Source of the DNA: Epinephelus fuscoguttatus
Lineage: Eukaryota > Chordata > Actinopteri > Perciformes > Serranidae
NCBI RefSeq assembly: GCF_011397635.1
Contig: NC_064754.1
Span: 32,964,543 to 33,028,542, forward strand
Length of the DNA stretch: 64,000 bases
Reading direction: 5' to 3'
The position numbers and the translations under genes were made by a program. The notes beneath the pieces were generated by a model. That model did not search any database. It was not told the origin of the DNA and saw nothing but the letters and a program-made list of their open reading frames with translations. Numbering within the stretch: position 1 is the first letter of the stretch; every line of letters starts with the position of its first letter. Shown here piece after piece: positions 13,801-47,470 of the stretch.

Positions 13801-16800
13801 TGCCAACAACTGGACTTTTTTCACACTCTTATCTTTCACTTTAACTTACAAAACAACAGCTGATATTTTTAAAACTGTGGGTCAAGAGGGTGAGCTTGCA
13901 TTTGTGAGCTAAAGTCCCAGTGTAAAATAAAGCTGTCTCACTTTGTCTTGCCCTGATACATTGTGCCGAGCGGCTCCAGGGAAATTTAAGCTGACTCAAA
14001 GCATAACTGCCACCAATTACACAGCGGAACAACAGTGAGCACACTTTCTCCTCCCTTTCCACCGATTTCTCACATTTTTTTCCTGCTGTTTAATAAGCTG
14101 TGTTGAGACAATGGCTGTCTGTCCTGGAGGCCAAACCTAGATCTTTTACACTCATCCGCTTTCCCACCACACTTTGGAGTCAGAGAGGGGATTTGCCTTG
14201 AGAACCTGGAGTGGGAAGAGAGTAGATAAAGTACTGTTTATCTGATGCTGTCAAAGGTTCAAGCACTGGGAGAGTTAGCTAAGGTTAGTCTTCTTTGCCT
14301 CTTTCCCTCGAGACTTTGGATTTAACAAAGATTTACCAAAGAACTTTGAGAAGGAAGGGATTAGAGAGATGACACCTTTTATCTAAGCCGTGAAGCAATG
14401 TCCAAGTATCAAGAACAGAATCATGGTATAACTTTAGGTCTGCTGGGAAAGTTGGAAAATGTCTTAAAAAGTTGAATTTAGCACAGAACAAAAAACCCTT
14501 ACCCCAGGGATCGGCTGATTTCATCTTGGAGATGATTTGTATGTGTATGAAAGGTAATGGATAACCAGTGTTACAGACGTCCAAGTCCACTCCTAAACAT
14601 CACATTTTCAGATTTCATACAAATATACATGTCAGCTGCTTTCAACTGCTTTGTCTTTGCCGATGTTGACTCCTCTAATATAATGTGGATTATACAAAAA
14701 TTCTGAAAGAAGGCTAAAGGCCAACCTGTCGACTTTCCATTATAGGCTTTTATTAGCTAATATACTGAATGTCATTCTGACAGCTACTACAACCTCATGG
14801 AGTATGCAGGGGTAAAGTGTAGAGACACTTTAATCAAAAAACATAGCTCGACACAGCTTATGTGATGCCTGAGAGCTTAATAGAATAATTCTGGTTTGAA
14901 AGGACATTGCTGTATCTCTGTAATGGCTCACAAAGCATGAGCTGGGATCATAGCTCAATATAACTCAGGGCTTTGTCTCTCAGGATCCTTCTTTTTTTAA
15001 CAGTTGAACAAAGACCATCTGAATGTGCTAATAAGATTTTGTGAAACCAGACCAAATTTGTTTTGGTTTGGCAGTGTGTAGTTAGAAGAGGGCTTTTTCT
15101 GGGCCATGCATGGGAAGGGAATCTTTTGACAATAGTTGTGAGTCATTGCTCCACTTACGGGATTCAATAGCGGTGTTTACATAGACCCTATTGAAGATAT
15201 TCAGGTACCGAGATCATCAACTGATCGCGAATCCTCTTTGCAGTGTGTCAGATAAGCTCTAACTCTGGCTCTGAGAGATCTGAAATACACCAGGGATATT
15301 CTGGGATATATTCTGACATTACTGCGGATATCAGTCCATGTAAACATTAATTTTGATTTTCACAGTATGCGCAAGCTCATTGTTTTGCTGAATAAAATTA
15401 CAGATCATAGAAAAGGGTATATCAGTGGATCATGGATGGATTCCTGAACAGGCCTAACGGGCACATGCCCAGGGACCCAGAGTGTCAAGGGCCTCTCTTG
15501 CTTTCATCTGCAAAATATCACTTAAGGAGACACGTCCTGACATAAAAGAGACTCAAAATGACCACAAAGAGACACACAGAGACTCACCAAGACTACAAAA
15601 AGGGGTAAAAGAACCACAAAGGGATATAAGATGACTAGATGACAAAGAGGCGTAAACAACTACAAAAATACCCAAAATAAGTATACACAAAGAAACTAGT
15701 ACAGAAGGACTCAAAATGACCATGAAGACCCACCAAACAACTACAAAGAGACCCACAGTGGCTACAAAGACACACGAAATGACAACAGAGACACCCACAG
15801 GGACTAAAACGACACACAAAACAGCTACAAAGAGACCAACAGGGACTTCAGAGAGACACAAAATGACTACAAGGATACCCACAGGGACTTCAAAGAGATA
15901 CAAAGAGACTCAAAATGACCACTAAGAGACACAAAACAATTACAAACATCCCACAGGGACTTCAAAGAGATACAAAGCAACTACAAAGAGACCCACAGTG
16001 GCTACAAAGACACACAAAATGACTACAAAGAGACCAGCAGGGACTTAAGAGAGACACAAAGCAACTTCAAAGACAACTGCAGACTACAAAGATACATTAA
16101 GAGACTCAAAACAACCACTAAGAGACACAAAACAACTACAAAGAGACCAACAGGAGATTCAGAGAGAAACAAAATGACCGCAAGGACACCCACAGGGACT
16201 ACAAAGAGATACAAAGCAACTACAAAGAGGCCCACAGTGGCTACAAAGAGACACAAAATGACTACAAAGAGACCCACATTGACTTCAAAGAGACACAAAT
16301 CAGCTACAAAGAAACCCACAGGGACATCAAAGAGACACAAAATGACTACAAATACACCCACAGACTACAGAGAGTCAGTAAGAGACTCAAAACAACCACT
16401 AAGAGACACAAAACAACTACAAAGTGACCAACAGTGGCTACAAAGAGACACAAAATGACTACAAGGAGACCCACATGGACTTCAAAGAGACACAAAGCAA
16501 CTTCAAAGAGACACAAAATGACTACAAATACACCCGCAGACTACAGAGAGTCAGTAAGAGACTCAAAACAACCACTAAGAGACACAAAACAACTACAAAG
16601 AGACCAACAGTGGCTACAAAGAGACACAAAATGACTACAAAGAGACCCACATGGACTTCAAAGACACTCAAAGCAACTACAAAGAGACTCAGCAGCAAGC
16701 ACTGATTCTTAATTGGTCCAATTTGAATCCCTGTTGCAGTTGCAGTGTTTGCTTATATCAGCAGCTGACAGGAAATAAACTGCATGCAAGCTGTTTCCTA

Positions 16801-19800: not shown

Positions 19801-22800
19801 TTAGTTTTTATAGCCTGCAGTTCCCCTGATGTTTTTATTTCTCCCTTCACCCTTTCTTTTTCTCCTTCATTGCTCTTGCACTCATCCCATCCCACTTCAT
19901 CCTCCCCTCCTTCTCTCCTGTCTTTTATCTCTCCGCATTTTGCTGCAGTTCGTTTTTTTTATGCTGATGAGTCAAAAATACAAACGATACCGGGGGCAGC
20001 TGCAGACTGAAGAAGTGCTCTGTCTTTCTTTCTCTCCTCAGATACCCCTTGTCTGCCTCTCAACCTTTCCCCCCCTCCTCCTCCTCCTCCTTCTCGGCCT
20101 GACTTAACCCTCCCTTTCATTCTTCTCTTTCTTCATCCCTCTTTTCCTTCCCCTCCCTGCATCTTTTCAACTGTCACACTCTCTCCCTCTCCATCAGGTC
20201 CCACAGAAACTGCTGGCTAATCCCACTAACTGGAACAGCTCATCTAATTGGACTCAATAGTTTCTGACAGATTCTCTCTCCCTCTCCTCATGCTTCTCTT
20301 GTTTCTCCTAAATATGTCTTGTTTTGTCACAAATTTCAGTGGTATACCGACTCCCCATCGCCCCTGTCCCTGTTTCTTCTTCTCTTTTTTCCATCCTCGC
20401 CCACACTACTTATGTGCTCCTGTGTTTGCCCAAATCCCTCAGACCTTTGGCTTTTCTCCTCATCTCTTTCTTTTCTGTTGATGCCTGTTGACAGCTTATT
20501 CTTGTTTGCAAAGCTCAGCGTTTTTCTGCTTCGGTATCACAAAGCATTATTTCATGGGATGTACAACTCCTATAGCGACAGTAAGAGGGCTTGCGTAAGA
20601 CATATTCCAGGGCTGGTGCCTTGTTGTGTAATAAGCAGAAGTCATATTTATACTGTATGCGCTCTCACAGCCCTTGACCTTCAGTTAGGAAACCATCAGG
20701 GCTGTAGCTACCACTGAGGACAATGAGTCATGTCCTCAGTAATGTTTCTGGAAATGTGGTGACAAAGACTTTTAAATAAAGGGATTTTTTTCCATCAGAA
20801 CTGTATTAGCATTGCACATTGTCTTTAAAACTGCATTTAGATCCTGTATATGAATAAAACTGACAGAAAACACATTTTAATTTAAAGGAATACATAAAAC
20901 GTCAAATAAATCTTAAGAAAAAATTTTAGTCTGTGTTCATAACTGTCCTTATATTGCTGCATAGGGGAATGCAGAGTCACGACTAGGGATACTGGGCATG
21001 TACCCGTTATGGAGTGTCTGCAGTCAGCCTGTCAACAGAGTGAAGGCATCGACAAATGTTAAGTCAGATATTTCTTTTTAACATCATACTTAAAGTTCTT
21101 CGCCACATAATCACAATGTGCTGTGAAATGCTTTGCTACCATCTCCAGTAAATTGTGCAAAATTAAAAAGTTAAAAGGGATCAGATGCAGAAAAAAAAAA
21201 TTACTATGAAGATAACAAAAAGAAGATGGTCAATATAGATATAAAGCAGGAAAACATTATAAAAACCAGAATCAATACTTCCAAATATTGTCCAAAGAAA
21301 ATTTTGAGAGTGATAAATATCTGAAATATAAAATGAATGCAACATATTAAATGGCAGATAATGATACTCGTCCTACCAATGCAAACAGAAAGGAGATTAT
21401 ATTACAACACATTTGTTTTAACGTAACTGATTCACAGGAAAACTGCCTTGTTGAAATAACAATAGAACAGTAGTAATAGGATACGATTAAGAACAAAATA
21501 GGTTACACTGGATTGGGTGATCCATTTATTGTCAATATACATGCTCACCATATCACCAAAGGGCGACAGAATTGCCCATATGTAATCATTATTCCATTCA
21601 GCAAATTCAGTTTTACACACCAATGCTACCACAACATGGTTAATAACTGTTTGCTCCCCGTATCACACACCTGATTCCCATTACCTGGAGCTTACCTATA
21701 TGCCCTTTACACATGAATGCCCCACCCTGTGTTCAGTTTAATTACTGCATGTGTATGTTTATATTTACATATTTACCTTGTGTTAAGATAAGAATAAAAT
21801 AAACAAAAAATATATTATGGCTCCAACATACACGTTGCTGCTGATTGGGTACAAATCTGACACGGCTACCCAACAAGAAAAAACGTACCTTAAAGCCCGT
21901 TGCACACTGTTGCGCACTGTTTCAAGGAAAATGTTGTTCTACCTGAAAACCGTAGCAACATGCACATCGTTTTCAGATAAACATGCCCTTGGCCCAGGTC
22001 GGCAGGTGAATGAGGAAGTGATGTCATAATTAAAAACCCACCTTGAAGAGAGGAATGACAGATTGCATTTTTATTTTTAACTAAATATTGCTTACTTGCA
22101 TAAATAGAAAATGATGTCCATTGTTTAAATTTTTTATATTTGAAAATGAAAATGCAAATTGGATTACTGCATATTAATATGTGGAAAATTATAATGTGAA
22201 ATTATTTTTATTTAATGAAGTCCCTGATGGGTTTCCATAGAATGGGTTATCCTGTCTAAAAGAGAAAAAGTGTTCCCTAATGGTCTAAATTGTATTTTAA
22301 AAAGCTCCACTGACAGAATACAGTCCTGTGGGAAGAAAAAAAATCTCACAACTACTTTGGAAAGAAAAATGAACAAAGTTATTAAACTTGACATCAACCA
22401 GTGTTCAATATTGGCACAATATAATAACAGTTATGGCTTCACCTGAGGTTTGTAAATTCATCTTTGTGTATATTCCACAGTCCATTTATCTGCTTGTTTT
22501 GTTTCTGTTGGACGTCTCATCTCACAGACTAATTTATTAGTTCAATATCTCAGTCCTAGAGGCCTGCTGGAGCTGTCATCGCGCCTCGTGTTTTTCTGAT
22601 GTTGTTTTTTTATGTCTGTCTTTCTCAGGAGGTCCTCCTGATGTGGGCAAGATGCTGGGTGGGGAGGAGAAGGAGGAGGACCCTGATGCAGCCAAGAAAG
22701 AGGAGGAGAGACAGGAGGCGCTGAGGCAGCAGGAGGAGGAGAGGAAGGCCAAATATGCCAAGATGGAGGCCGAGAGGGAAAGCATGAGGCAAGGCATCAG

Positions 22801-23793
22801 GGATAAGGTATGACGACAGTCTAGTTTAATTTACCCAACACAAGGTGTTGAGTCAGTAGGTCTCAGAAAATAGGCTACCAATAAAAATAAAGACCAGTTT
22901 TAAATGTGAACATTAAACTGGTGTGAAGGCAATCAGATGAGCAATTTCAAAAATCACTGTAAAACTGTGCCACATTCATGTAAGAAGTTGTGATGATTCT
23001 GGATGCCGTCCTGTATTTCCATGTCTAAGTAGCTTCTGAAGGCTTCTCGTCTTGGCTGCATGACAGCTAAACCCTTTTTATAACAGACCTGTGTTTGAGA
23101 CAGACTATCATCAGACTATTTTTGTTTGCTTTTATGTAATTTTAAAATAGATCAGTGGAGGATCAGGAAGGAGCTGTGCAGAAGTGAGGGAAGAGGAAGG
23201 CAGTAGATGAGCGAAATGAGGCGCGATGATTAATAAGAATAAATCTGAATTTTTAGACATAAACTAGTGGGTCAGAGAGGAACGCTTTAGAAATGCAAAA
23301 CACTATCCAAATTCTTGTTCAGTAAACTACTTCAATGCTTTAGGCAAAACAACGGGATGTTAGGAGGCTTGTTTGTACTCGTTAATGGCTGAATTAGTAT
23401 AATGTGTATTTTAATGTCTACACTTTAGGTTCATACGCAGACAGTATTTGCTTTAAGTTCCCCTCTCCACTGATGTAGTAGGCTGCGAGGCTGCTGTGAT
23501 GGTGAGGGTTGCAGTGTACTCACCTCACTGCAGAGGCAGTGTGAGAGACAGCCAGTCTGTGGGTGGGGCAGGTCTGAGGGGAATATTGTGAATCAGCGGG
23601 ATGAAAAGCGGCACTCCTCCCCTGGCTCCTCACCTTCTCTGTTCATCTTAAGTTCTCCCGGAGGAGAACAAAGAGTGAGGAACAACTCCCAAAGTGCTCG
23701 TTACTGAAGGGGTTCTGTCAGCTTCCTCCTCAGTTTTATCCACAGCTTTGTGCCAGATACTGCGAGAAATGTCCATATTACAGCTGAAGAATG

Positions 23794-23826
<33 letters not shown>

Positions 23827-26014
23827 GCTCAGACTTCTCGACAGAGCAAATAGTGTCATGTGCAGTGCTGTTTCATCCAGTTATTGGGAAATTATTAACA
23901 TTTTTGTTGGCAACAGTTTTCAGAGCTGTTGTGAATTTTCTTGCGTGCCTTTCAAACAAATTCACACCGCAAGTCTGTGACATCTGCTGTAACGGTGTGT
24001 GAACACTGAAAAGCAGCACCGAAGATAGCTACTCTGTTTGTGACATCTCGCAAAGCTTTGTTGAAAGACGCAGACAGGAGCAAGATGAATACAAAGACAA
24101 AAAAAGAAGGGCTAGCAGCTGCTCAAAACAGGAAGACAGAACAGGGCTCCATGGGATGGGTGATCTCAGTGTTCAGTATATTTTGCATTCATGTCATACT
24201 GAAGTTATCATAATAATAAGTTACCAACTCACATCACCATCTAAGTGGTTGTAAACTCTGACTTTACAATAATCTAATATATCTGACCTGAAATAATAGA
24301 AGCGCCGGCTTTTAAAGCGAATCATGTCACCTTAAGATCGTCATTCAATTCAATTAAACCCAATTCTAATGGATGTAGTGTTATATTTTCAATGTGCAGT
24401 ATTTTTAAGCCTACATTAGCAGGCACACACACATAAACACACAGCTTCAGCAGAAGGCAATTAAAGCTGCAGTAATAGATGTTTAGATGCGATGTTTGGC
24501 GTAGTGGCCGCAGTAGAAATTGCAGGTAATGTGACTGACTTGGACCCAGAAAGAAACCATCAAGAAAGAAATAGCTGTTAAATGTTAAAGACATTTGGAA
24601 ATGACACATTCAGCAGATGTGTTTGTGTTGTCCAACTGACAGAATCGATCCACATTTCTTTAGGAGATCTGCAGCTCCAACCCACTAAATGCACAGTTAA
24701 CAGATAATAATGCATCAAATAACATGATGTTCAGAGAACTTTGGTTTGTACAATCCTGTAATTGTAACAGAGTGTATAAATAATGGACATACAGTAGCCA
24801 TTGCTATGTCACCCTTTGATTTGGTGAATCCCATTTGGAAGACTCGAGTTTGGCATTTTGGCTGTTTCCATCTTGGAGTTTTGGATCCAGAAGTGACCAT
24901 ATTCAGAAGAAAGTGAAGAGTGGATCTGACTCATAGACTGTAGCAAAGCCTTGCAGACAGCCGATTTCTCAGGCGGCCCGTCCTTAATTACGCACACCTT
25001 TAAGCTTTAACAAAATGTGAACAGTGGGTTATAGAAAATCACTCCTGGTACAGTTGTTGCGAATGTTTAGATTAGCTACAAAGACCAAAAGGGTTCTTTG
25101 TTCCAGGCTGTAAGCATGTATAAAGCTGTGCATTTTAACCAGGCTACCAGGAAATGCGCCAGGCTTTGAAGCCAATTTTCGTAGTGGTCAAACAGTGGTA
25201 CTGCAATTTCTGGGTCCCTAGTGTGATCACCTGTGGCTCATAAAGACTTTCCCATTGACTTACATGGTAAAAGAGACATCTGTAAATCAGTGGATACATT
25301 TTTTTGAGCATCACAACCCCCGCAAAATGACTTATTTCACTATCAGCATTTGATCCGTTCGGTCTGATGAATCTTATAAAGTCTAGAAGAGCTGCATGAT
25401 TCAATTATTTTATCCCCATTCAAGTTAGTGTTAAATTGAGCTCTTTAGCCTGCTACCGCTCATTCACCTGCTATTTGTTGGAGTGCAGAAGTAGTACCGA
25501 TAATCCTTGCATAATCTGGGTAATTTTAGACACGGCAGTTAAACCATTTGGCTTCATGCACCACTGAGCAACTCTTATAGGACTGAATGGGGCTCTGGGT
25601 TCATCGCTGTATCCAGGTCTCCTAATACATCCATGATTTTAGCATGATGGCTTATACTTTTGGAGCCAGCCTCAAGTGGCCATTTGAAGAACTGCAGCTT
25701 TTGACACTTGGGCGTCGGCTTCATTTTTCAGCCTTGGTGCCACTTGGTAAATATCTGCATTACCTTTGCACCCTTCACTCCTCTAACTTCCACATATGTC
25801 TCTTTCTGTGTTCGACCAACAGTATGGTTTGAAAAAGCGCGAGGAGGCTGAAGCCGAGGCAGCAGCTGCCGCAGAGGAGCCCGCAGAGGGCAGCTTGACT
25901 CGACCCAAGAAGGCCGTGCCGGCTGGCTGCGGTGACGAGGAGGAAGAAGAGAGCATCATGGACACAGTGATGAAATACCTGCCAGGCCCGCTGCAAGACA
26001 TGCTGAAGAAGTAG
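4792..26014 (+). CDS. cplx1: Complexin, complexin-1-like (gene-level: exons 4792-4822, 22629-22807, 25823-26014)
   Basis: Complexins are small cytosolic presynaptic proteins that bind assembled SNARE complexes and clamp or promote synaptic vesicle fusion with synaptotagmin. The joined exons give 133 aa; mammalian complexin 1 and 2 have 134. The layout is: N-terminal segment about 1-28, charged accessory helix about 29-48, SNARE-binding central helix about 49-71, and an amphipathic C-terminus from 112 ([20 protein letters not shown]). The residues expected to touch the SNARE bundle are present as R49, Y53, R60, R64, K70 and Y71. [19 protein letters not shown] is closer to complexin-1 than to complexin-2, and there is no CAAX box, excluding complexin 3/4. 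The introns are about 17.8 and 3.0 kb. The paralogue name (cplx1 or a teleost duplicate) is an inference; membership in the complexin 1/2 class is secure. Confidence 0.93.
6201..6255. repeat. (TG)n microsatellite, interrupted
   Basis: About 55 bases of GT dinucleotides interrupted by three gtct units, within complexin intron 1. Confidence 0.95.
6575..6740 (+). mobile_element. tRNA-derived SINE, degraded
   Basis: The head gtgcctgtggttcagtgg resembles an A-box region. A B-box-like cggggtgattctggc follows, then a pyrimidine-rich body and a terminal tcaaataaaggcaac. That ending is typical of teleost tRNA-head SINEs, many of which finish in '...aataaaggca'. No clean target duplication was found. 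Confidence 0.55.
6830..7135 (+). repeat. Percomorph interspersed repeat ('actattaggtgaattgtcatgaaa' type)
   Basis: The motif order is: tatatctcaaaaactattag, then gtcatgaaatgttgcatgga, then gctaattagcagatgttagc, then taccagctaaacatcagtg. This matches a dispersed repeat I recognise from percomorph fish. It is non-coding and its class is unknown to me. Confidence 0.5.
7150..7600 (+). repeat. Dispersed repeat, copy 1 (second copy at 41350)
   Basis: The copies share blocks in the same order, for example atgacagaaaccat, gtcccat-ctaacatg-agggg, actgcagccagccaccaggg and atg-tttggcttcac. The same block order at 41350-41705 shows that both are copies of one family. Confidence 0.75.
10214..10236. repeat. 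Oligo-A tract
   Basis: 23 consecutive A bases within complexin intron 1, with no associated retrogene visible upstream. Confidence 0.9.
15425..16700. repeat. Minisatellite inside a mobile-element copy
   Basis: The lead-in at 15425-15550 (catggatggattcctgaaca, gggcacatgcccagggaccc, tctgcaaaatatcac) is shared with 53570-53720. It is followed by more than 1.1 kb of 'gactacaaagagacacaaaa'-type units carrying variants (cccacagggacttc, cccacagtggctac). A higher-order repeat is visible: the block at about 16332-16442 recurs 176 bases downstream at about 16508-16618. Many frames stay open here, but their products are monotonous Thr/Lys/Arg repeats; this is not a gene. Confidence 0.85.
18169..18699 (-). 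mobile_element. 5'-truncated non-LTR retrotransposon (LINE), ORF2 C-terminus
   Basis: The minus strand encodes, with frame breaks, the end of a reverse transcriptase: [28 protein letters not shown], then [20 protein letters not shown] followed by [12 protein letters not shown]. This is the ending of a common teleost LINE whose 3' tail is ATGGATGG-like; here the tail abuts 18169 (ccatccattttc on the + strand). It is flanked by a 9-bp target duplication, ctgttctat, at 18160-18168 and 18700-18708. The copy is severely 5'-truncated and defective. I do not assign its clade. Confidence 0.88.
18709..19405. mobile_element. Unclassified element nested next to the LINE
   Basis: The segment runs from ttactgggcgattaagcaa to aaaataatcgcaatcatgat and cacgatcgagcagcc, a pairing of ends I associate with a dispersed percomorph repeat. 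It separates the LINE's right flank from the resumed outer repeat. No coding frame and no clear duplication. Confidence 0.4.
19830..20480. repeat. Pyrimidine-rich, strand-asymmetric block
   Basis: Around 650 bases of the + strand are dominated by C and T (ctccttc, ctctccct, ttcttcttct runs), with only a short balanced interval near 19970-20020. This is the reason for the long Leu/Phe/Pro/Ser-rich frames here, which are not genes. Confidence 0.6.
22629..22807 (+). CDS. cplx1: Complexin exon 3 (accessory and central helix)
   Basis: The exon follows the acceptor tttctcag at 22621-22628 and ends before the donor gtatga at 22808. It has 179 bases, entering in phase 1 and leaving in phase 0, and encodes residues 11-70. 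It includes the [17 protein letters not shown] helix and the SNARE-binding central helix up to GIRDK. The exon junction inside DK/YG is the usual complexin junction. Confidence 0.95.
22808..25822 (+). other. cplx1: Complexin intron 2
   Basis: A 3.0-kb intron. It holds a 27-base oligo-T tract at 23794-23820 and a composite repeat at 24800-25745. The rest shows nothing definable. Confidence 0.7.
24800..25745 (+). repeat. Dispersed repeat, split copy (contiguous copy at 50545)
   Basis: The left part, 24800-25135, shares agaagtgaccatatt, cccttaattacgca and ccaggctgtaa-catgt with 50630-50800. The right part, about 25655-25745, shares gccagcctcaagtggccatt and aactgca--ttttgacactt with 50865-50930. 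The roughly 500-base spacer (about 25135-25640) includes a different repeat (ccaattttcgtagtggtcaa), apparently a later insertion. Confidence 0.65.
25823..26014 (+). CDS. cplx1: Complexin exon 4 (C-terminal)
   Basis: The acceptor is ttcgaccaacag at 25811-25822. The exon encodes [20 protein letters not shown], the conserved GSLTRPKKA[10 protein letters not shown] block and the C-terminal amphipathic helix, and stops at TAG 26012-26014. The terminal LQDMLKK has Leu where mammalian complexin 1/2 has Phe (LQDMFKK). The Ala/Glu-rich run at residues 78-92 is longer in alanine than in mammals. Confidence 0.95.
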
Positions 26015-30844: not shown

Positions 30845-30903
30845 CTACACATTCGTCCGACACTTAGGGAAGATGGGTCCTCCCTCAAGCCTTCTCTTTC
30901 TTA
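30845..30903 (-). CDS. tmod1: tmod1 canonical terminal exon
   Basis: After the acceptor ccatctacag the exon supplies the last two bases of Val and then [18 protein letters not shown] and TAG at 30847-30845. This aligns with the mammalian TMOD1 tail (RKRR, a Gly-Pro-Ile core, PKCR). The frame begins after the split codon and is only 19 codons long. Confidence 0.93.
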
Positions 30904-33900
30904 CTGTAGATGGAGGGAAACAAGAAGAGAGAGAATGACAGATGGAGATAAAGGGGTGAAAAGATGAGGATGAAAAGGATACAAGGAAAAATATTAGAAA
31001 AACAGAATCCAAGACAGTAGTTCATCATCATCATTATCAACAACAACTTTGGCCAAAGCGCAGCAAAGTGGGTCTGCTTTATTTGCTTTACATGAGTTCA
31101 GAAAAGTGAGGCAACTGAAATGAGGTAAACAGCTTCAAACAGCAGGACAGAAATATTCAAGTTACAGAACTTTGTCTTTAAGTGGCAGCAAACGGCTTTG
31201 ACAGGAGCTCTTGAAGGAAAAAAAAGGTAAGACATTGATAAGAGCAGAGCTGGATTATTATACTATGGCCCAAGGACAAACATGAAGTGTGGGCCCTTCC
31301 TGACCTTGAGTACTATGTCGTAGGCAACGGGACTTGGTTGAGTTTCTTGAAGACGTTTCACCTCTCATCTAAGAGGCTTCTTAGGTTCAACCAGTCGAAT
31401 GGCAGTCTTCCCAAAATCTTCCCAGTTCTGAACTGAAGAAGCCTCTTGGATGAGAGGTGAAACATCTTCAAGAAACACAATCAAGTCCAGTTGCCTACGA
31501 CATAGCACTTAAAATTACCATGACCTGGATGACTGAGAATCTTCACTAACATGCCCCTTCTGACCCTTAGTGTTCATCATTAATTCGTTTGTGGCAACTT
31601 GACTGGGCACAATTTTATTTAGCAAAATACAGCAGATAATGACAATATATGCTAAAACAATATGGACCAGTACTACGTTAAAAATAGATTTTAACTTATA
31701 GGTGTTGCTTTAATTGCCTTTAAAGAGTGCTCTAATTTAGCATTGCACTTCTACAACATTGTTAAACTCAAAAATGCTGATCAAAATCAATGCCAGAAAA
31801 ACCAGAGATATCGTCTCTTCCCTGTCAAAACCTGGTGTCTACACTCCGCACAATTCAACTCAACCATTGACAGTTTGGTCAGAGATTCAGGTGTGTTATG
31901 CTAGCAGTGGCTAATGTAGCCTCGAGCTGTTAGCCTCAAGCTGAGATGAGGAGCGGGCTGCAGAGGTCTAGTAAGATAACTTCTTTCTAACTTCACAGCT
32001 GCAGATTTTTTTTCATTCTCCCAGTTGCTCATCCTTACAGTGTCTGTCAGGTTTGTGTTTCCCTCTTGATACTAGCTGCTCATTCCGTCATCAACAGCCC
32101 CTCCCATGGCGGAAGGGCGCCTCGTTCTTTTTAAACTAAAAAGATTCTGCCAATATGTTTACCCTACGCGGCGGAAAATTGGGCACCTTGGATCAACTCG
32201 CCAATCTAGCTCTGTGTGTATAAACGCTTGCAGCTTGCCTCAACAATCGCAAAAATCTGGCAGTGTAAAAGGGGCTAGAGTGTGTAAAATCAGCACACTT
32301 GCCCTTTAAGGGCCTTATCCTTCTAGTTCATACTATAATTTAGTGGTGCATTAAGACACAAGTCTGCAGAGCATTAAATTATTACAAACAAATTGCCACA
32401 CAGTGAACTTGATGACTTTGGGGCTGCTGAGGGTTTGGGGACCCAGGGCAGTAGCCCATTTTGCCAGGTTAACAATCCAGCTTTGGAAAAGAGCAGTGTT
32501 TAAAAGAAGCGAGGACAGAGGCTTAGCAGAGGAGCCTAAATGTCTCCAGACGATGCAGGAACAGTAAAAACAGTAAATCAGCTGAAGAGCATGGTCAAGT
32601 GAGTAAAAAGGCCAAGGAGAAAAATAAATAAAGTGGCCAAAGAACAGGATATACCACTGATTTATTACTGGGAAAGAGATGCTGAGAACAGATGAAGGTC
32701 TCTGTAGGAGCCTGTGCAACCAAATGTCAGAGACAGAAGAGGTACATAGCGGATGTTGTAGCCCAGAAAGTTAGGGGATCTGTGCTAGGACATATGACAG
32801 AAGCAGAGCTCAGGCCCCTCTGTTCTGCATTTTCAATGTCCATTTTGGGAAATTAATCTTATCTGATGTTTAGTCTTCTTTATTTCGAAAGCACAGGTTG
32901 TTTTAGCCTTCAAATACCTTAAGTTATATTTCAAAGTCAAGTTTACGTTTCTTTTACTTGTGATGAGCAAATCTTTAGTACTCTTTGATTTTTTATGTAT
33001 CCCTTAAGTGCTGTTCCCTGTTTATGGACCTCCCAGGCTTCTGTACTGTTGTTGCCTTGTTGGGCAGAGGCTTTCACATGTGAAATGTTGAGAAACTGAG
33101 GCAACAAAAAATATATTCTGACTATGGTGGGGACCAGAAAGCATCACCAGCTAAATTTGGGAGACTCTGTCAGTGTCTCTGCAAAGAGGAGACGAGTGGA
33201 AGATGAAAAGAAGTAAAGTGATGAAAGGTGCTGTGGAGAAGCAACAGACACTCTCAGAGGAGTATGACAGGTGGTGGCAGAGGTTCCCAGTGGTCTGGAA
33301 AAGAACCGGGTGATGTTGGCAGAAGGAAGGCAAGGCTGAGCGGTCAAACAGTGTTTGTGTTTCTTTTTTCTTTTTTTTACTTAGTCTTGGACTTGAACTT
33401 TTTCCCGAAGGCTCTCTCCAGCTCAGGGACGGAAAGAGTGAGGGTGAAGGAGCCGTCCGACTCTGACCTGACGACCCGAGCTTAAAGATGACGGGGGAGG
33501 AAAACATGATGACAAGATTATGACACATATACTTGACGTCAAATGGTTAGTGACACAATACAAGCACACTACAGGACCATGTACCGCCAAATGTAATCAT
33601 TATTCCGAACCTCACCTTGATCCCGTTCTAACCTTTGGCAGAAGTGAAGACAGTCTCTTCACACTTATCCCTACTGGCTCTCAGGTTACGTTCAAGAGCA
33701 CTTCAGTACAAACTTAACAAGCACTAAGACTCACTAAGAGGAGTTTACTCAACTGTATGGTACATAGACAGCAACTAAAATAACCGCATGTGCATGAACC
33801 ATTTCTTCTGCCACTTTCATTTAGTTCCCTCATGCACAGACTCTTTTCTTAGCAATGATGTCATAACTTAAGCAGCCTCTGTTTTGATTGGCTGAGGCTT

Positions 33901-36900
33901 TCTGGCCGTACTACTGAGTTACCGGCCGATGATATCACTCTGATTCTTCTCTTAGAGTCTGATTAAAGTAGAACCCGAGGAGATATAGTGAAGATAAAGT
34001 GTCAGCACTGACGCACTGAACAACCGACACTGCCAAACACAATACTACTGAAACACTGTGTATAACTTACGTAACCGACCAAATCACTGAGAGGTGAATC
34101 ATATAGTAATATAATACAATATGTGCTCGAAATGTTATCAGTTTCAATGCAGTTCATTAACTTCTGTCATGTTCCCAATTCAGTTTCTCAGAGCGGGGAT
34201 AAATTGATTGTGTGTGTGTGTAACCCACCCAGGTCGTTGTTGTTCATCATGGCGTTGGAGCCTCGGAGGCGAGGGCCCTGCTGGGTGAAATGATATCCAA
34301 ACTTCAACAGCGTGTTGTTTTTCTCCAGCATGCTGGCTATCTCCATCTCCACCTTGTTGCCTAGTGGCTGGCTCTGGAGTTTGAAAAGAGAGAGCAGGGA
34401 GAGATGGAGGAGGAGGAGAGTTGTATGGAGATGAATTACAAGTGGGTAACAGAAGATTTGTGGTAGCGAGATGGAAACGTTTGGGGGAAAGACAATAAGA
34501 TGAGTACACAAAATGACTGACATCCTCTCTGCAAACTGTGCCACTGTGCATTAGGTGGTGATCTCCATGGCAACACAGGATAAAGTGGCAGGGGGTGACA
34601 TGCTTTTTCAGTTTCAGTTTTATGTCATTTCAATCAGTCAGTCAGTCAGTGGAGCCAAACGGCAAAGGAAGCAGGATCATTCAACAAGTTGAGCTAATGA
34701 GTGAGCGCTGAGTCACAGATGCAGTGTGACACATGACAATGTAATCAGGGAGCATTAGACTGAAGTGGCAAAGATGGTCTGTGTATAGTACCTGACACGC
34801 ATACCCACACACACACTCACATTTATATGCGTGGTAAGTGTGTATGACTCTGCTTGTATTCAGTGCAAGTGGGTTGTGCGTGTGCACTTGTGTGCATGTG
34901 TAGGTGTTGGTACCTGATTGTCTATCTTGAGCTCCTGTAGTGTGGTGTTAAACTGCAATGACTCTATGAGGCCCAGGATTCCAGTCCCTGTAATGAAGTT
35001 GGACTCAACGTTCAGGCTCTTCAGCGACGTGTTCACCTTTAACATCTCTGCTAAAGCCTGAGGAAACACACACAGCACACACTGTATCGTAATTCACTCA
35101 CTGCTGTGCAGCCCTGTGCTGTTTATTCCAACGACTGGTTGCCAAAATGAGGTACACATCAAAATGAAATGTTTTATGCATCTGTCTACTAGGTAGGAAA
35201 AAAGAAAATGGAGCTTCAGCCAAATTAATTCAAACAAAATGACAAGAGCCACTAATGTCTCACATCAAACATCAGATTAAGATTTTACACAAGTTTGGAG
35301 TGCGACACTTTTTTCCTACTTTGAAACAATAGTTTGATACTATAAAAAAAAGGGAAAGGAAAAGAAATGGAGCAATAAATCAGGTAAAACAAATTCTGTG
35401 CAGCATTTCATGTTAAGCGTTAACAGCTGTGACTTACAAATGCTACAGGGTCGTTGCTCCTGGTGCCTACAATACTAAACCTCTCCACCACAGTGTTCTT
35501 CATCAGCGCCTCAGCATACGCCCTCAGAGTCTTGATGGGGATGTTCTGGGTACAGACAACATTACAGTTTAACCCATGTTTCCTACGTTATTTATTCTTA
35601 TTAAACAGATTTTGTGGCATGAAATGGATGTTCTTTACACAAAATCCAAAATTTGTCATGATACAGAAAAAATTTGTTTTGTTAAAAATGTGTTAGACAA
35701 AATAAATGTTGTATTGTGTTCCAAAGAAAATTTAATCGAATTAACCCTTTGAAACCTGAACAATTTGGCTTGATCTCTTTTAAAAACATGAAAAGAAGGC
35801 AATGAGCAATGAAAGAAAAAATGAGGCAAAAATATTAGCATGAAATTAGTAGTGAGAAAATTAAAACAAGAAAATTAGAAGAAAAAAAAAGAAAAAAGAT
35901 TGAAAACAGACAAACCAGGAAATGACCTGGAAAGAGTGCTTAAAAATTATTATAATTCTGTAACATAATTTTGAAATGTAATATTATTAATAATATTAAT
36001 ATAGTTTTCCCTGAATTTTATTTTTTTATGTAGTTTTTTTTTAAAAATAATTTCCTAAATCTATTAATTTTTTTGCAATCTGTGGGACATTTCTTACCAA
36101 GTTGCTCGTTGCCTTTTCCCCCATGTTTTTGAAAGAAATGGCACCAATGAGCTCAGGGTTCAAAGGGTTAAATTGATTTCATTTCACATATTTATGATTT
36201 ATATTTTTAATTTAAAAAGGAGTTTATGTTTTAAATCTACCTTTTTAAATTTCATCTGCAAAATTTAAATGTGAAAACTAAATTTTGTGCGCCAAGGTTA
36301 GTTTGTGTCTGCTTTCATAAAAAAACAAAACAAAACATGAAATATCATATGTATTTTTTTGTGTGACAAAGTTTAGTTTTCTTTAGTGTAAGTACTGAAA
36401 AAATACTATTAGGGACATATGACTTCAATAGAGAACAGGCATTTCATATAAGAGTTTCAACATCATTGAGTTTCCATCTACATCCAAAATAAATAAAAAT
36501 CGCTGTTGTTTTTGACACACACACACATACAGTATATACACATACACACTCACCTTGATGTTGTTGAGGTTGACCTCCACCAGGTCAGGGTCGTTCCTCT
36601 TCACTCTCAACAGGGTGTCCTCTACATCAGTGGAGTTGGGCTCTTCATCTGGGACTGGTTTATACTGGGTGCACTGGATCACACCTACAACACAGTCACA
36701 GTACACACTCTCATGTACAGCAGGAGGCTAATTACACTAGTCTTACCAGTGGAACAACACTTATTATTTAAACATGTTTGTAGCTCTTTCCCCACACGTC
36801 TTCATTAAGACTTTAAGACTGCCAGTATTTAAATCTGCCTCAGCAAACACTGTGAGCAGTTTTATCTGGACAGCTGACAGCTTGGGACGCTGTTCACACA

Positions 36901-37940
36901 TCATCTACCTCCAGTCTGTGCCAAACTAAGCATAGCAATCTGCACTGTTCATGAAAGTACATCATTTTCCCACAAGCAGAGATCATGTTAAATATTACTC
37001 TTGATTATGGGGCTCTCTGCTGGTTCAGAAGGGAAACTGTTCAGTTTACAGACGAGCACGTCACCCTTCAGCTGACAAGAAAGCATTTTTACATTTATAG
37101 TTCCCAGAGCACAAAAAGAGAACAAACCACTCCATGTTTTTGCATATTTTAACCCATTCACTACAAGTCATGTGCTGTATATTTAACATACAGTATGTGC
37201 TGACCATTTACCACAGCATACAGTTTTGTTTTTTAATCCCACTTTCAAAGGAGTCAGTTTCCAATCATTTTTATATGTCATGAAAATCAATTTTTGAAGA
37301 AGTAAAAAAACACACAGGCAATTAATCTTTATGACTTTTACTGAGACAGCAGCAGATGTGATGTTGAGTAACTCAAACAAGTTTCTAATCCCTTAATATT
37401 TTGTGCAGCAGTGACACGACGATAAAACACAACAGTTTACTTTAGAAAATACTTGGCAGTGACCTGCAGTAAATGTATTGTTGAGGCCTGCTGGAGCAAT
37501 ACATGTGTGTTTTATTTCATATGTCAGTAAATGAAGTTGTTTCAGTAAGTTATAAAATCAGCTTGATCCGACATTTTGGTCAGTATATGTTATTTCTGTA
37601 AGACTATACTAAATTCAGTTTATTAGGTGATCCTCAAGTCAAAAGCTGGCAATCCAAGTTTGCTTTCAGTAGAGGTCTTCAAGTGAAACAATGCTCACAC
37701 AAAAACAAAAAAAAAGACTTCTTGTTCCATCACATTTTATGTTCTTGTACTAGCACTAAAAAAACTAAGGAACTGACAATCTCAAGAGGCGAATCAGACG
37801 TTTACAGCTGGCTCTCCCTTTGAAAGCTGGTCATATTTGGCAGTGACACGCTCGGCCTCTGTCTCTGTTTAGAGCTGGAGGAGAATCTATAGGATGGGCC
37901 GCCATTCAAGATAAACAATGGCTCATTAACATGTGTGTGT

Positions 37941-37976
<36 letters not shown>

Positions 37977-38433
37977 TAATATCTGAATACCACGGTTTAC
38001 ACTGTGTAGTGTAATATGAAAGGTAAACAGATGAATCACCAGTAATTCCTGGAGGAGCTATAGGACAATGTACGAGACGAGTGTCTATATACACTTTTAA
38101 TCCTTTAGTTTTAAGCTGTGTAACTATATTTGTGCATGCATGGAGTGCAAAAAAGAAAAAAAAATCCAGAGTTGATCATCTTTGGTAAAATAAAGCAACA
38201 TTCTGCCAACGTGAGATCATTCCACTTGATTCCAATCCAAGTCAACTCACTTCGACATTTTTCTTGAATGAGGGGATTTTTTTCCGTCAGACTAGTTGAG
38301 TGATCTGCGTTATTTTAGGATACTTTTTCTTGGATATCCCTGCACCAAATGTATCTGCGATTGAACCGAGTGAAGACAGCTCACGCACCTGGCAGATTTC
38401 AACAAACAAAATACTCAGTTACATAAGTTTCAG

Positions 38434-38491
<58 letters not shown>

Positions 38492-41400
38492 ACATACTGT
38501 TGAGGCCTTGCTTGTTGACTATAGTGCTGCTGGCCAGGGCTTCATAGTACTGCTGGTTACTCATCAGGGTGTGCATACCCAGGATGGCTGGAAGACAGCA
38601 AGAATGAGGATGGAAAGAACAAAAGGAATAAACAAAAGGTCAGAAGAAGAAACAGAGAGACAGAGAGAGGAATGCTGATGAAGACTATAAATTTAATGAT
38701 CGACCACCATGCTAATACAGAGTGCACATCAGCGCTTGCAGCATCCCAAGCAAGTCAAACCTGACAGTCACCATCTCAGCGATCAAGCAGCTCCATACTG
38801 TAAGGTTTCATTGGTAATATGGTTCCTGCAGCCCACAGCTGAGGTCTAGGCTCTGCTGACTGACTACACATAAACATGCTACTCCACCATCTGCATGTTC
38901 AAGGATGGTATTAGCCTGGGAAGAATTCCAACTTAAGGAATCCTACTTGTGTCCTGGCAGCTGTGAATCTGAAATATGATTTTTGATTAAGCAGGCACGC
39001 TACATTAAAGAAAAAACAATTTTGAGAGAGAACAGAACAGTTTACAAAGACATAAACAGCTGGAAACACAAGCCAACAAGCTGCTCTCTGGAGAAGTGGA
39101 GCAGCTTACCTTCAGCCACTCCAGGGACTTCTTGTGCTCCTAAATATTCCTGCAGCAGTATTGTTTGGTAATAAATTTTGGTTATGCAAATGCAGGTAGT
39201 AGAGACTCCGGGAGTGGGTGGCGCTAAATGTATTTAAATATTGTAATAAAGCCCTCTCACAGAGAGATTTAATAAAGCATTTATAGTTAGAATCTTCCAA
39301 CTTATCACAAGTGAGCTAAAAATGATAGCTTGCTACTTCTAATTAACTTTTTAGAACAAAATATTTGTCAGTATTTGTTCTTAGACTTTCACAGCAGATT
39401 TCAAAGGTTAATGAGATGTCTGTGCCTTTAAAATGAATATTTTCAGTCGTCTTCACAATGAACATGTTAAAGCTTTGTACATGCAGCAAAATATTTGCCA
39501 CAGTACTGACGCTGACATTTGCCATACATTACACAGACTCGATGAAAGCCCCTGTGTAATGCATGTACAGTAGAGAGATCTAAGGGCCTGTGTCACTGAG
39601 TCAAGCTGCATGGTTTTTGCTAACGTCTGCTTAACACAAGCCGACAACATGAACATGACAAGAGGACCAGAATCGTTCCATGCAAACACTGTGTGCAGTC
39701 TACAGATACCCTGGATGGTGTTCAACTAGCGAACAGAGATATCCAGCAGGGATGGAGGAGGTGGAGGAGATGGAAGGTATGATGGAGGGATGAAGGGGAA
39801 GGGTGGAAGGAAGATGAAAGGAGCGCTAGAGGAAATGGAGAAGAACTGGGTTAAGGAAAAAGTGAATGAATGAGGGAAAGTTTAGGCCACTAGTTAGTGA
39901 GAGAAGATGAGGATGAAGAATAATCAGACACTTGCACTTTAGCGTGTTCCACCGATCAAATCAAGTTAGTGATTGTCATTCATTCAAATGCTATTTTGGA
40001 TGTGTGTGTGCTAGCCTGTCTTTTGTTTTGTTAGTTTTTAAAGTTTAAAATACATTTGAAATACATTTACTGTTAGATGGCGATCTCTCGTGGCTGTAAT
40101 AATTATGATGAGGGCAAAGGAGGAAGTCAGGTGAGGCAGTATTACCATTAAGAACATATGTGTTGGGAGGTTAATGGGTCAAACAAATAGTGGACTTTCA
40201 CCCAGGAGAGTGGATTTTGTGTCCTCGGTGAAACCAAAAGCCAAAGTTAACTTAATTCAAGTTCAGTTTTAACTCATGTACCATGATATCTTTTCCTAAA
40301 CCTAGCACATGATTCTTTCGAAAGTGAAAGCAAAACCTGACAAAACTGCAACCAATTCATAACGTCGAATATGCAAACGACCATTCAATGGGCTGATAAC
40401 TGCCTATGAACCTAGTATTAGGAGTGGCAGGCCCCTTCTAATCATCTATGAGACTGAAAAAAGCACAGATAATGGCCATTTAATGAGCTGATAACATCCA
40501 AATCAGGTGTAAAACAATAATGCAAAATTCTGGATTCAGATGAAATTCTCACAATTTTTCTCCTTATATTCTCCTACTGAAGGTACCAAACTGCCTTCTA
40601 TATGAGGACTCTTTACTGTAAAACTGTAGTAAAAGTAGCGTCCTCTGAAAGTCGTAAATACAACTGTTTTTAAAGCCTTTTTGTAAATTTGGTGAAAAAT
40701 AAAAGGAAAAGGAAATCAAAGCCTTTATGCATAAACACGTACATGTGAATGTGAGGAGATGTGAGTGACTTCGGTTGTGTTACCTGCGATATCACAGAGT
40801 TCAGCATCAGTGGCACTAGCCAGGGCTTCTTCTAGCTCCGGCTCCAGGGTCACATTCTCCATGATGGGGTCCACTCTCTTTTTAGGCACAAAGGCTTTCC
40901 CTACAACAGGAGTGGACTATTTTAATACAAAACACAAACATACATTACTTGTGATGTATTTCCTGGAGACAGTTTGTTCTCCCGTGGAATTAGCAAATAA
41001 AAGGTCCCCCCTCCACACTCACACAGGTATTTTCACTTTTGCTAATTAACACCTCTGCTCAGGTTACTAGTAATCACATGAAGACACTTGAGTGTACGTT
41101 GTCCTGCCTGTACAGGTACATTTAATGTTAATTAAGTCTAAACAGTCCTGAGAAGCAGTCTAAATCAGAAAAATAAGTGAAAACACCTAAAAATAAATAA
41201 ATTTTAAAAAATGGCCGCTGGACATATGCTTTATTCTGATCTCTCATTTGATTTTATATCTCATTTGATTTTAGTTTAGTCTGTTTAAAATTATTAGTGC
41301 CATTGACACAATGATACCTGATAAAGATGGACGATGCCTCTCCACTTACTTGCACTCTACAAAAATGAAGCCAAAATTTCTCAGATAAAGTTGCTGCCAT

Positions 41401-44400
41401 CTTTGTGCTAGCTCAATGGCGCTGTCAATCATGACCACAGTCCCTCATTTTGTAACATCAAATTACTAGTTATAACCAAACGTAACAGAAAAATGAACAC
41501 TTGAGCACACATCAGCATGATAAGAACTACCTGTAATGACAGAAACCATGTTTGGGAAAAATTAATTTGATGTGTAATCCCAGTTTGTTGTTTGGCTTGT
41601 GTCCCATCCACTAACATGGAGGGGAGCGGGGTTATGACCTATACTGCAGCCAGCCACCAGGGAGCAAACAAGATGCTTTGGCTTCACTTTTTGGGAGCTG
41701 TCATAGAGTTCATCTCCTGAAATGGTTGTTCTGCATTGAAAAATAAATAAAATTAAAAAAACAACTCTGAGAAGGGGCAGAGGGTACATCTACTCTTTCT
41801 ACCCTGTCAATAAAATTCTGGATGTGGCCTTGCATCCCACCCACCACGCTGCTTGCAGTAGGTTTTGCTTTAGCTTTCCGCTCTCTGCAGCGCTGGCACA
41901 GCACTGAGAGGAAGTGTAGAGATAGGTCTGGCTATGGGAGTCACTGACTGGTAATAGAGAAGCATGCATCAGGATGGCTAGTGTTAGCATTTGAGGAAAC
42001 ACTAGAGAGATTCAGCTTTAACGTTTGAGCCTCAGTCAGACCCAGACTCAGACAAGGAGCCTGCTCTGCTAAGTGTAGTTAGCTTTTTGTTGGCTTGTAA
42101 CTGACAGTTGCTGACATAGGGTTGTGACACATACAGTAATATCAGCTATAATGTTACAGTGATTTCACATTGTTATTACGTAACTATATATCAGAAGTCT
42201 GATCAAAGTTTGCATAAAGATCTATTTTAGGGGATATAAAAATAGGGGCAACACATTTTTGAGTGGAGGAGATTTGAATATAAGCATGTTTTGTAATGTT
42301 TGCCATGTAAAAATATGCAAAATTTCCAAATGGATTCTGGTATTGTGACAATGTTGAAGACAATTAGCTTGTTTGAAGTCATGATGAAATAGAGTATATA
42401 TAGTAGTTTGCGTTTCAAATTCAAATGTCAAACTAAGGTGAAGTATCAGACAGAGGTCTCTGTCCAACTCTTACATAACAGCTGAGCCGTCTGGAGCGAG
42501 TCTCCCTTCATCGGGTCACACCTGACCGCAGGCTGTCGACACTGTAAAGACCCAGAACTTTGTGTCGTTACTGACAGGTCTGCTATGTCTGTGTCTGTGT
42601 GGTCAGCTCCTCAAGTTTCAGAGAGACATTTCTGACCCCTACATACACACAGTGGCGAGATGTTACCCAGAGCTTTTTAAAAAAGTCACTGGTGTCCTTT
42701 CTTGATCACATCTATACCGCTCCGTCTTTCCACACTGATAAACACACTGTTTAAGGTTGTGACAAGTAAAAATCAACCAGCTTTAGAGCAACCTGTAGTG
42801 AGCTTTGTTTCAGTGTGAATGGAGGGTGAGCAAAAATGGAGTGGTATAAAGGAAACATGAAGCAAAGTGATGACAGACAGCTTTGAACAGGGTGTGGAAA
42901 CGGCTGTTGCTCCACTCCCCACTCACGCCCTGTTTCACAGCAGACCAGCTGTTTCACAAGAAGAACTAGGAGCCATTAAGCCTCCCTTAATTGTACCTTG
43001 ACTGGAGCTGTTGAGGGATTGTTACTCATTCACTTTCCCCATCTGCAGTTTTACAGTCGGCCTGTGAGATTAAACTGTAACGTGCTGTCTTTAATTTTCA
43101 CAAGTGCACTAATGCAACAACACCAGCAAAGAGGATCATGACGAAAGTGACAGCAGGGAGACCTTCTAGAGTTTCACATAGAGATGTCTGGTATCTCTCG
43201 CCATCCATCACACACCTCTGTGTCCACACTAAACTGGTGCTGGCATGCTAACAGGCCTCACAAGGCCTGGTGAGGGAGGTCGTGTGGAACCAATCACCTC
43301 TCAGTGAATCAAAAGGGCTTTTTAGGGTTCCCTGAGACAACTTTTAAAGGGGGCCTAATGTGCTTATTTTCAGATTCATAATTGTAATTTGGGTCTCGAC
43401 TAGAACATGTTTAATGGTTAAAAACATTTTATTTGTCCATTACTGTCTGCTTGAATACACCTGTATTCACCCTCTGTCTGAAATGCTCTGTTTTTGTACT
43501 TGTCTCTTTAAGCCCCCCTCCCAAAAAAGGCCACTCTGCTCTGACTGGCCGGTGTTGCTGGATCTGCCATATCTCCTAGCCTGCGGAATGACTGTAACGG
43601 AGTATAGCAGCACTTTCTATCATGAGAAATCACCAATAAACGCTTCTAAACTAAAATCTTCACAATCAGACATGTTCAGGCAGTAAAGTGATCAGAAATT
43701 GTGGAGATATGAACAACATTTGCAACCAAGTTTACAGGTTTCCCTGATGTTAGCATGTAGCTACATGTAGCAGTGTGGGCTACATAATGTAAACACTTGC
43801 AGTAACGTGCCTGGAGCAGATGACCATATAAAGAAATCCATCAGAAGCTGATGTCAGCTTTTCTCAAAAGTAGAAAAAAGTGGATTACTTTTACATACAT
43901 TTACATCGTTATTTCAAATTTTGGCCATATTTAATATGCACACAAGACATTTCAACATTGTATCTATGACAGAAAATAAGAAAAAGCATAACAGGTCCCC
44001 TTTAAGGTTTGTGGTTTAGTTTAAGTCATGAGTAATTTGGGAGTTAATGTGAATCTTGTATATCCATGGTGACCTTACCTCACATACTTGGATAGCTCTG
44101 TTTTCTTTAATATTCAGGGAAACCAAACAGTATAGACATCCTGAGAAACCAAGCTCATACCTCTCTTCTCCCCTGTGAAGGGCACCAAGTCCTCTTTGTC
44201 AGGATGCTCTTTGGCCTGTTTCTCCAGATGGGCCAGCAGGTTATCTCTCTGAAATTGTCCCGTTGGAGCTTTCTTGGTCTGGTCCTTCTGCCGCATCCCA
44301 GCTGGCAACAATGCATTCTAGACAAGGATGAGAAGTGACATCATTTAAAGGACTGGCGCTGGGTATCAGAATTATGAGTATGTCTCATTTCTTCCTTTCT

Positions 44401-47400
44401 GTCGGGTTAAGTCCTGTAATGCCTTGCAACATCAGAACAGTGCAGTACAAATGACTCCAGAGTTTCTTCCTTGCTGCGATAATACTACTTATTAAAACAC
44501 TAATCTCCATTATATATCTTTCAGGCACCAGTGGCACCATTGATTGCACTCTTCTTGAGCAGCACTCCAGTCAGGGGTGAGGCACAAATCCTTTATACAT
44601 GATTTGTGGTAATTTATATGACACAGAAAATCTTTAACCCGAGGTAAATCTTTTGACAAATTTAAGATTATTTTTTAGCAGGGAGGGAACATAAATACAA
44701 CAAAAGTAATACAGTATTAAATCAAAGTGTGACAGACATAGAGGAGGTGGTACAGTATCTTTGTACTGGACATTTCCCAGAGCTCTGCTGCTCACCACAT
44801 TATTTTCAACCTACAGCAACATTCAAAACAAGCTCTTACAAGTGCTACTTATAGCTTCGTATCTTATCAGTCCTCTCAGCACTCAGAAGCCTCTCTCTCT
44901 TCATGACTCCATGTCTCTCTCACTCTCTTTCCTTCTCACCATTATTCCTCCACCAGCAAACAAAAATATGCTGAACAATTTACACTGTCTGGTTTGAGAT
45001 ATACTCTTTTGAGGTACAAGAATATTCTCTCTTCTTCTTAGTGTCTCTCATTCAGTTATTCCAGCAGTGGTCCATAAGTGTTCACGTGACATACAGTAGT
45101 ATTTATAGTGAAGCCAGGAGTATATCACACCGTCACTGCCAGGCTTTTTATGTCACACGTTGTATCAGCTATAGATAACAGGCACACTCTCAGTCCCAGT
45201 ATGTTATTTTTAACAGCATGAGACTCTCTGTCTTCCTCTCCCATCCTCACCATACTGTACTGTACTTTTGGCTACTTGGAAACAGAAAACATGACATATT
45301 ATCACCTTAAAAAAAAGCTGATATTGCAAACTTACTGTAGCAAACAGTTGCTTCAGCAGATACAGAGCAACATTAGCTCTACTTTACTTGGAGTCGTGTT
45401 TTCTGCTGACCTGATGAATATAAGCCCAAATTTCATTCTCCTTTGGCCTCCACCAACTTTTGAGAAAAATACCTGCCGGTTGCATAAAGCACCTTAAGTT
45501 AAGATTTTCCTTTAAATATGAATTAAGGTTTCCTTTAAGTAAATCAGTTGCACAAACATGCATTATCTTTTCCTTAAGGTTTCCTGAAGCTTTCCTCTTT
45601 ATCTTGGTCTTATACTTGAGGAACTGCTCAAAGTTTGTTCAACCATTGCACAGGGGACTTTAGCAACTAAAGTAAGGAAAAACACAAGCTAACTCTGACT
45701 GCATCTTAACTGCAACCTGGCTGAGTTTATGGCAATAAATGAGGAAAATGACAGCATCCGGAGAAGAGCGTTCTGTGACCAGGAGAACCAGATGGACACA
45801 CTTCATGATGAGCAAGTGATTTAGCACAATAAATTTATGATTTTGGTAAATGTCTGAAGTTGAATCACTCAATTTCCAGCCCTGTTACAATTAATGATTG
45901 CTCTGCAGGTTTATGCAACGGGATCTTTCCAATCAGCTATCGGCGATGCATTTCCTGTACACAAGTCAACGGTGTGCTGCATCATGCACTGGGTTTCAAA
46001 CACCCTCACCCATCTGCGAACACCATAGTGAGGTTCCTGTCCCAACAAGAGAAGGATGACATAGCGGTACACTTCTTTGATGGTGCCGGCTTCCCAAAAG
46101 TGTGCGGGGTGATAGACAAGAACCACATCTGGATACAAGCACCCGCACAAAATGAGGATCAATTTGTCAACAGAAAAAAAACCCCAAAACACTCAATCAA
46201 TGTCAAGTTAGTTTTCACTTGATATTCACTGTAGGTTATTCAAAAAACTAAATTGTTCAGGTGCATGCTTGAACTTAAATCAAAATTAATTAAATGTAAT
46301 AGTTAGCGTTAACAGATAGACTGTCACAAGCGCTAGTGTAAGCAAACAAATCCATCCATCTCCATGGAAACGGTAGAATTTTATGGTTGTAAAATCTCTT
46401 TCAGTGCAGTAAATGCCTTAACATCTTTCCTTGACTAAGGAAACCTTTTAAGAGATTCTGTGCAACACCCTTAAGTAATTTCCTCAGCTAGGGAAAATCT
46501 ACTTAAGAAGCAAACTTAAGGTGCTTTATGCAACTGGCCCCCGGCTTTTTAGCTGCTAAATTCTCAACCATGCTCACTAGCTACTCTCTAACTTAAGCCC
46601 TTTTTAAACTGGAATTGTACAAATTTGCAGGAAAGCCCAGTCAGCTTGCCGGTAAAACGGCCCAACATTCATGGAAAATCTGGCGGTGTAAAAGGGGCTT
46701 TAGTCTGTGAGCCGTTTTGTACTGGGCAGGTAGTGCACAGTGGGTTTACTAGATCTGTTTTTTTCTGGAAATAGCTGCCTTGAGTTGAGAATGAACCAAA
46801 ACAGTAAAGTTGCAGGCCATAAAAAACAAAACAATGAGCTGAAAGATGTTAAAATGTTCAGTAAAAAATATGAATGATGGCAGCTTTAAGTGGGTTAGTA
46901 AAAAAATCTTTTTTTAATTTAGGTTGAGAAATGTTATCAGTAATGTATAAGTAGGTAGGTCAGATCCGTAATAATCTATTCCAGATATTAAAAGGATGTT
47001 GTTTTGATTAAAAAATGCCAGATGTGACAATGATGTTATGGTTAGAAAAAGTAAACAGTATGAACCAGTCCAAGTTGTAGTGTGTAATAGTATGACTGTA
47101 GTGTACATGCAAAAAACACAAAATGTTCTCTAGATGATTCAAAATAAATTAATCTCTCTACAATCACAGTACAGTTGGCAGACACGTTGTTCTTTAGTCC
47201 AAAACAATGAGACTTTTTCGATAGCTTACTGGAACTGATGTGGGAAGCCTTATTGGGAGGGCTACAGCGTGTTTCAAAGCAAATGGGCACTTGACTGTTG
47301 TGTAATGGGTTACCCTCATTTATAGGTACAAACAAGGTACGCACGCACACACGGCACGCACTGTCTCTAAATGTTTCCTCTGTTTACGTCATGGATTCCC

Positions 47401-47432
47401 TCTGGACACCTACTGCTGACATCAGTCTTGCT

Positions 47433-47470
<38 letters not shown>

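Follow-up and report, generated by a model that had tools for sequence, protein, structure and literature searches.

The window analysed here, a 64,000-nucleotide stretch of the Epinephelus fuscoguttatus genome (C3:32964543-33028542), holds a single tropomodulin-1 gene, tmod1, on the minus strand from 49245 to 30845. Its eighth exon can be joined in frame either to the canonical, distal last exon or to a proximal stretch inside intron 8 that encodes a different protein tail, and our subject is whether this proximal stretch is used as an alternative last exon. The features on which the argument turns are these:

34229 to 49245, minus strand: part of tmod1 common to both forms, recognised by spliced translation, GT donors, alignment to solved Tmod1 and the Pfam family Tropomodulin.
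49245-49123, 44317-44161, 40900-40784 and 38587-38498, minus strand: common exons of tmod1, from spliced translation.
36684-36554, 35545-35438, 35057-34914 and 34373-34229, minus strand: common exons of tmod1, continued, from spliced translation.
33481 to 33531, minus strand: acceptor region of the proximal exon, a pyrimidine-rich tract (84% pyrimidine) with an AAG acceptor and an AG-free stretch of 49 nt.
33377 to 33480, minus strand: proximal candidate last exon, from its in-frame join, codon scores and unique place in the genome.
32879 to 32884, minus strand: AATAAA, which could serve the proximal form as a poly(A) signal, from a pattern scan.
30845 to 30903, minus strand: distal canonical last exon, from its in-frame join; acceptor score 8.44.

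Judged from its predicted product, the gene is tropomodulin-1. All eight common exons have GT donors, and the true donor scores range from 3.6 to 12.34 (the splice-site frequency tables, and with them all acceptor and donor scores, are approximate). Joined to the distal exon 30903-30845, they encode a 357-residue protein that carries the Pfam domain Tropomodulin (PF03250, residues 5-143, E 1.3e-62) and aligns from residue 4 to residue 357, canonical tail included, with solved Tmod1 (8f8t chain T, E 2.6e-179); the distal tail matches the end of the Tmod1 chains 8iah and 8f8t. This end-to-end alignment bears out the gene name proposed in a preliminary description of the window, whose positions for the end of exon 8, both last exons and the AATAAA also proved exact. 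When the complete protein was searched against the genome (26 contigs, 1,046,998,120 bases), there were 34 matches, among them tmod1 itself but no second tmod1 copy. By our own assignment, they include two further tropomodulin-like genes (C2, around 37.23 Mb; C8, around 0.92 Mb), places resembling leiomodins on C1, C4, C7 and C22, and a single weak hit on C14.

The donor of exon 8 (34373-34229) reads CTGG/GTGGGT at 34229 (the slash marks the splice site) and leaves the frame in phase 1. The proximal acceptor reads cgtcatctttaag/CTCGGG, with its AG at 33482-33481; the junction completes an alanine codon, 33 further codons follow, and a TAA stop lies at 33379-33377, with an A-rich run 3′ of it on the minus strand. 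Spliced translation thus reproduces both of the phase-matched joins first described, to 357 residues with the distal exon and to 372 with the proximal exon 33480-33377. The two forms are identical to Leu338, beyond which the last 19 residues (339-357) are exchanged for 34 others, among them a single proline. Translated, these residues bear no resemblance to the Tmod1 end and match nothing among PDB sequences, in keeping with the earlier statement that this tail is unlike known tropomodulins. As the exons are laid out, the two terminal exons would be expected to be used in a mutually exclusive way.

One measure in favour of an exon is composition. Its tail reading frame has a G+C content of 57%, rising to 79% at third codon positions, within an intron of 42% G+C overall. 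Codon scores, trained on the exons of tmod1 against its introns and on this gene alone, give the tail 0.374 per codon, within the leave-one-out range of the nine true tmod1 exons (0.028-0.776), and 0.344 on synonymous choice alone, a value exceeded by one of those nine. We scanned both strands of the window for AG sites that score 3.39 or more as acceptors and open a phase-1 frame of 33 codons or longer; 259 sites pass, a count that takes in true exons and the proximal exon itself. By codon score the tail ranks ninth, below eight sites in sequence taken as coding: complexin, five rows in tmod1, and frames at 60903 (taken by eye as part of the Tudor gene, with no Pfam match) and 438 (a coiled coil, taken as coding by eye). 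The coding-like composition in AT-rich surroundings noted earlier therefore holds up beside every comparable site of the window.

The acceptor region points the same way, since among 228 candidates outside recognised coding sequence the proximal exon alone combines 49 nt or more free of AG with a pyrimidine content of 84% or higher, thresholds that are its own values and were picked after the fact; three of the eight true tmod1 acceptors reach them too. Predicted alone and without an alignment, the tail peptide folds into two strands and a helix with a mean predicted local distance difference test (pLDDT) score of 82.2 and a predicted template modelling (pTM) score of 0.39, against 66.7 and 0.13 for the antisense peptide from nearly the same DNA, the one control in this comparison. 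Within the genome, the tail peptide has no match but its own place among the best candidates scored, and the same holds for 161 bp of DNA around the proximal exon, which gives no hint of a repeat family or a parent gene. Among the resemblances considered for the tail, a WH2-like element was rejected (the spacing is wrong, the strict motif is absent and a loose version turns up in 717 of 20000 shuffled sequences, the motif itself being approximate), and a DUF4387 match over the exon junction, at 15.9 bits against a cut-off of 27, was taken as chance.

We favour the reading in which the proximal stretch serves tmod1 as an alternative last exon, a candidate to which we assign a probability of roughly 55%. 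Several results weigh against it, and most of them feed its main rival, a pseudo-exon arisen by chance: a frame within the intron that is never used and happens to follow a phase-compatible AG where G+C is locally high. The acceptor, the phase-compatible frame and the stop were put forward as support and are indeed present, the stretch having these features of an alternative last exon, but acceptor, phase and frame length alone are no more than chance. Beyond the window-wide count, seven other sites within intron 8 pass (33335, 32701, 32667, 32480, 31672, 31651 and 31207), and the proximal acceptor scores 3.39, lowest of nine and below the range of the other eight (4.22 to 8.64). The AATAAA at 32884-32879, also offered as support, is likewise present but occurs at the background rate, which makes it weak support, and we rejected it as such: the hexamer is found at 0.95 per kb on the minus strand, with four copies in intron 8 (the others at 32666, 31619 and 31083) and eight in the other tmod1 introns, so that the possible poly(A) signals of the proximal form itself, at 32884 and 32666, are at background. 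The tail has no Pfam match at E values up to 10, and a Foldseek search of its model against the PDB gave 12 matches with no similar fold (best E 4.6); a known fold for the tail was rejected on that value.

The tropomodulin paralogues tell in the same direction. The gene on C2 shares the exon-8 boundary and phase, followed by an intron of about 0.6 kb and the tail VRRKRVEGDL; in that intron the longest phase-1 frame behind an acceptor scoring at least 3 is 18 codons, and a comparison of the tail with 9.9 kb stretches of the C2 and C8 paralogues gave nothing better than E 0.37. The two paralogues therefore lend no support to an ancient family trait, and the proximal exon, if real, looks from these comparisons particular to tmod1, since neither shows a counterpart. 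A wider hunt for relatives in the viral_contigs and genome_contigs collections found 7 and 72 stretches, respectively, that fit a pattern, none of them confirmed. A chance pseudo-exon would account for the missing counterpart, for the other qualifying sites in the intron, for the weak acceptor and the background AATAAA, and for tract thresholds chosen after the fact. It fits less well with a codon score inside the range of true exons, a tract and AG-free stretch unmatched by the other candidates in the set of 228, and a fold confidence above that of the single antisense control. On this balance we hold the pseudo-exon to be a serious possibility, though one we lean against.

Composition alone also leaves the strand in question. 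The antisense frame of the proximal-exon DNA has a codon score of 0.309 against 0.318 for the sense frame, and a combined scan that took in all phases and 4033 unrecognised frames places the proximal site at rank 15 and the antisense one at rank 4, further results on the negative side of the ledger. The twelve best rows of that scan comprise five in the Pfam Tudor stretch, three antisense to the proximal DNA and four near 3 kb; the last, in a region not recognised as coding that outscores the proximal exon, again suit a chance origin. Because the antisense strand scores as well, composition marks the patch as coding-like and does not by itself pick a strand; what favours the minus strand is the host gene, whose donor matches. 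Around 2960-3420, high coding-like scores occur on both strands with no recognised gene.

A coding-like patch of this kind could instead belong, as an exon, to a gene on the plus strand, or be what is left of a retrocopy or transposon. An 86-codon stop-to-stop frame with an acceptor scoring 8.68 runs through 33225-33485 on the plus strand, the minus strand has the A-rich run past the stop, and repeats lie elsewhere in intron 8. That strong antisense acceptor, however, is the complement of the A-rich run; the antisense peptide is predicted to fold poorly; searches with the peptide and with the DNA turned up neither a parent gene nor a repeat family; and the repeats (31306-31512 and 32020-32285) lie outside the exon. 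We consider such an origin very improbable, and for a transposon or retrocopy in particular it is unsupported by the genome searches and the repeat map of the intron. The repeats themselves are a 207-base inverted repeat (31306-31512), 79% identical to its own reverse complement, and an interspersed repeat (32020-32285), 83-92% identical to 57541-57888 and 46675-46708; both are clear of the proximal exon.

The stretch might also be spliced at both ends. If a donor downstream (for example at 33148) were joined to the distal exon, the TAA would become premature, the transcript would be destroyed, and Tmod1 output would fall with no new protein made. Past the stop there are donor-like sites whose top scores, 5.41 at 32918 and 5.23 at 33148, fall inside the range of the true donors; such donors are presumably common by chance, and a poison or cassette exon does not require coding-like composition up to its stop. 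We give this explanation little weight.

Other features in the window lie apart from the terminal exons:

22541-22810 and 25787-26011, plus strand: two complexin exons (Pfam Synaphin).
62787-63014, minus strand: Tudor-domain exon (PF00567), upstream of tmod1 on the same strand.
60674-60922, minus strand: frame without a Pfam match, upstream of tmod1 on the same strand.

Since the complexin exons are on the plus strand, the complexin gene runs toward the 3′ end of tmod1. As for the Tudor-domain exon on the other side, TMOD1 has TDRD7 as a neighbour in mammals. Tandem arrays at 15725-16688 and 53714-54207, built of closely similar ACAAAGAGACACAAAACAACT-like units of about 21 and 42 bp, flank tmod1 on either side. 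Frames at 45833-46219 (plus strand) and 56795-57154 (minus strand), by eye, presumably derive from Harbinger-like and Tc1-like transposases, respectively; in Pfam the former has a sub-threshold DUF772 match and the latter none. Glu/Lys-rich, coiled-coil-like frames at 278-986 (minus strand) have no Pfam match above the cut-off and are probably part of a gene that extends beyond the window.

If the proximal stretch is indeed an alternative last exon of tmod1, the acceptor at 33480 would be used and the transcript cleaved and polyadenylated within intron 8; the resulting protein would keep the sequence to Leu338 and carry the 34 other residues in place of its last 19. The weak AAG acceptor suggests that this form is minor or tissue-restricted and the distal exon the default. 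The exchange may weaken or retune actin binding by the leucine-rich domain (the second actin-binding site, ABS2), and we think this its most likely effect, given that the swapped segment takes in the C-terminal residues which that site reportedly needs. In PMC6190845, removal of 15 C-terminal residues from Tmod1 is reported to disrupt ABS2, yet residues 345-359 make no actin contact in the structure, and simulated C-terminal truncation changed Tmod1 only modestly; according to the same source, Tmod2 lacks the last ten residues. PMC4571291 describes the C-terminal helix as flexible, with a conformation that shifts upon actin binding. The earlier suggestion that a swapped C-terminus could alter function is thus reasonable in view of the 15-residue removal, but the structure shows no actin contact there. 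A more specific proposal, a second tropomodulin-1 in which the segment required by ABS2 is replaced by a compact strand-strand-helix tail ending in lysines, giving a weak or differently targeted cap in place of a tight pointed-end one, we regard as unlikely.

The role of the Tmod1 C-terminal segment is unsettled, given a reported need for it in actin binding and the lack of contact in the structure (PMC6190845). The proximal exon, if used, would be a natural replacement of that segment; comparing the two isoforms would then test what the segment does, and capping strength could be set by splicing within one gene. Titles and abstract openings among the literature matches listed mention no terminal-exon alternative of tmod1, and fish annotation databases may already list one.

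Set beside known systems, the gene offers three comparisons. The arrangement resembles alternative last exons with intronic polyadenylation, which likewise pair one donor with two rival terminal exons, both of them carrying a stop and potential poly(A) signals; here it is a candidate read from the DNA. Compared with the Tmod1 pointed-end cap, the product is the same to Leu338 and, with the distal exon, in the tail as well; the proximal form differs in a 34-residue end without a Pfam or PDB sequence match. The leiomodins, relatives of the tropomodulins, have a C-terminal extension that bears WH2, with a secondary part in nucleation (PMC4571291), whereas Pfam and motif searches found no WH2 in the proximal tail. 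Like them, the proximal form has a longer C-terminus past the leucine-rich domain, and, on the unlikely proposal of a weak or differently targeted cap, a single gene would hold a change for which there are otherwise distinct tropomodulin and leiomodin genes.

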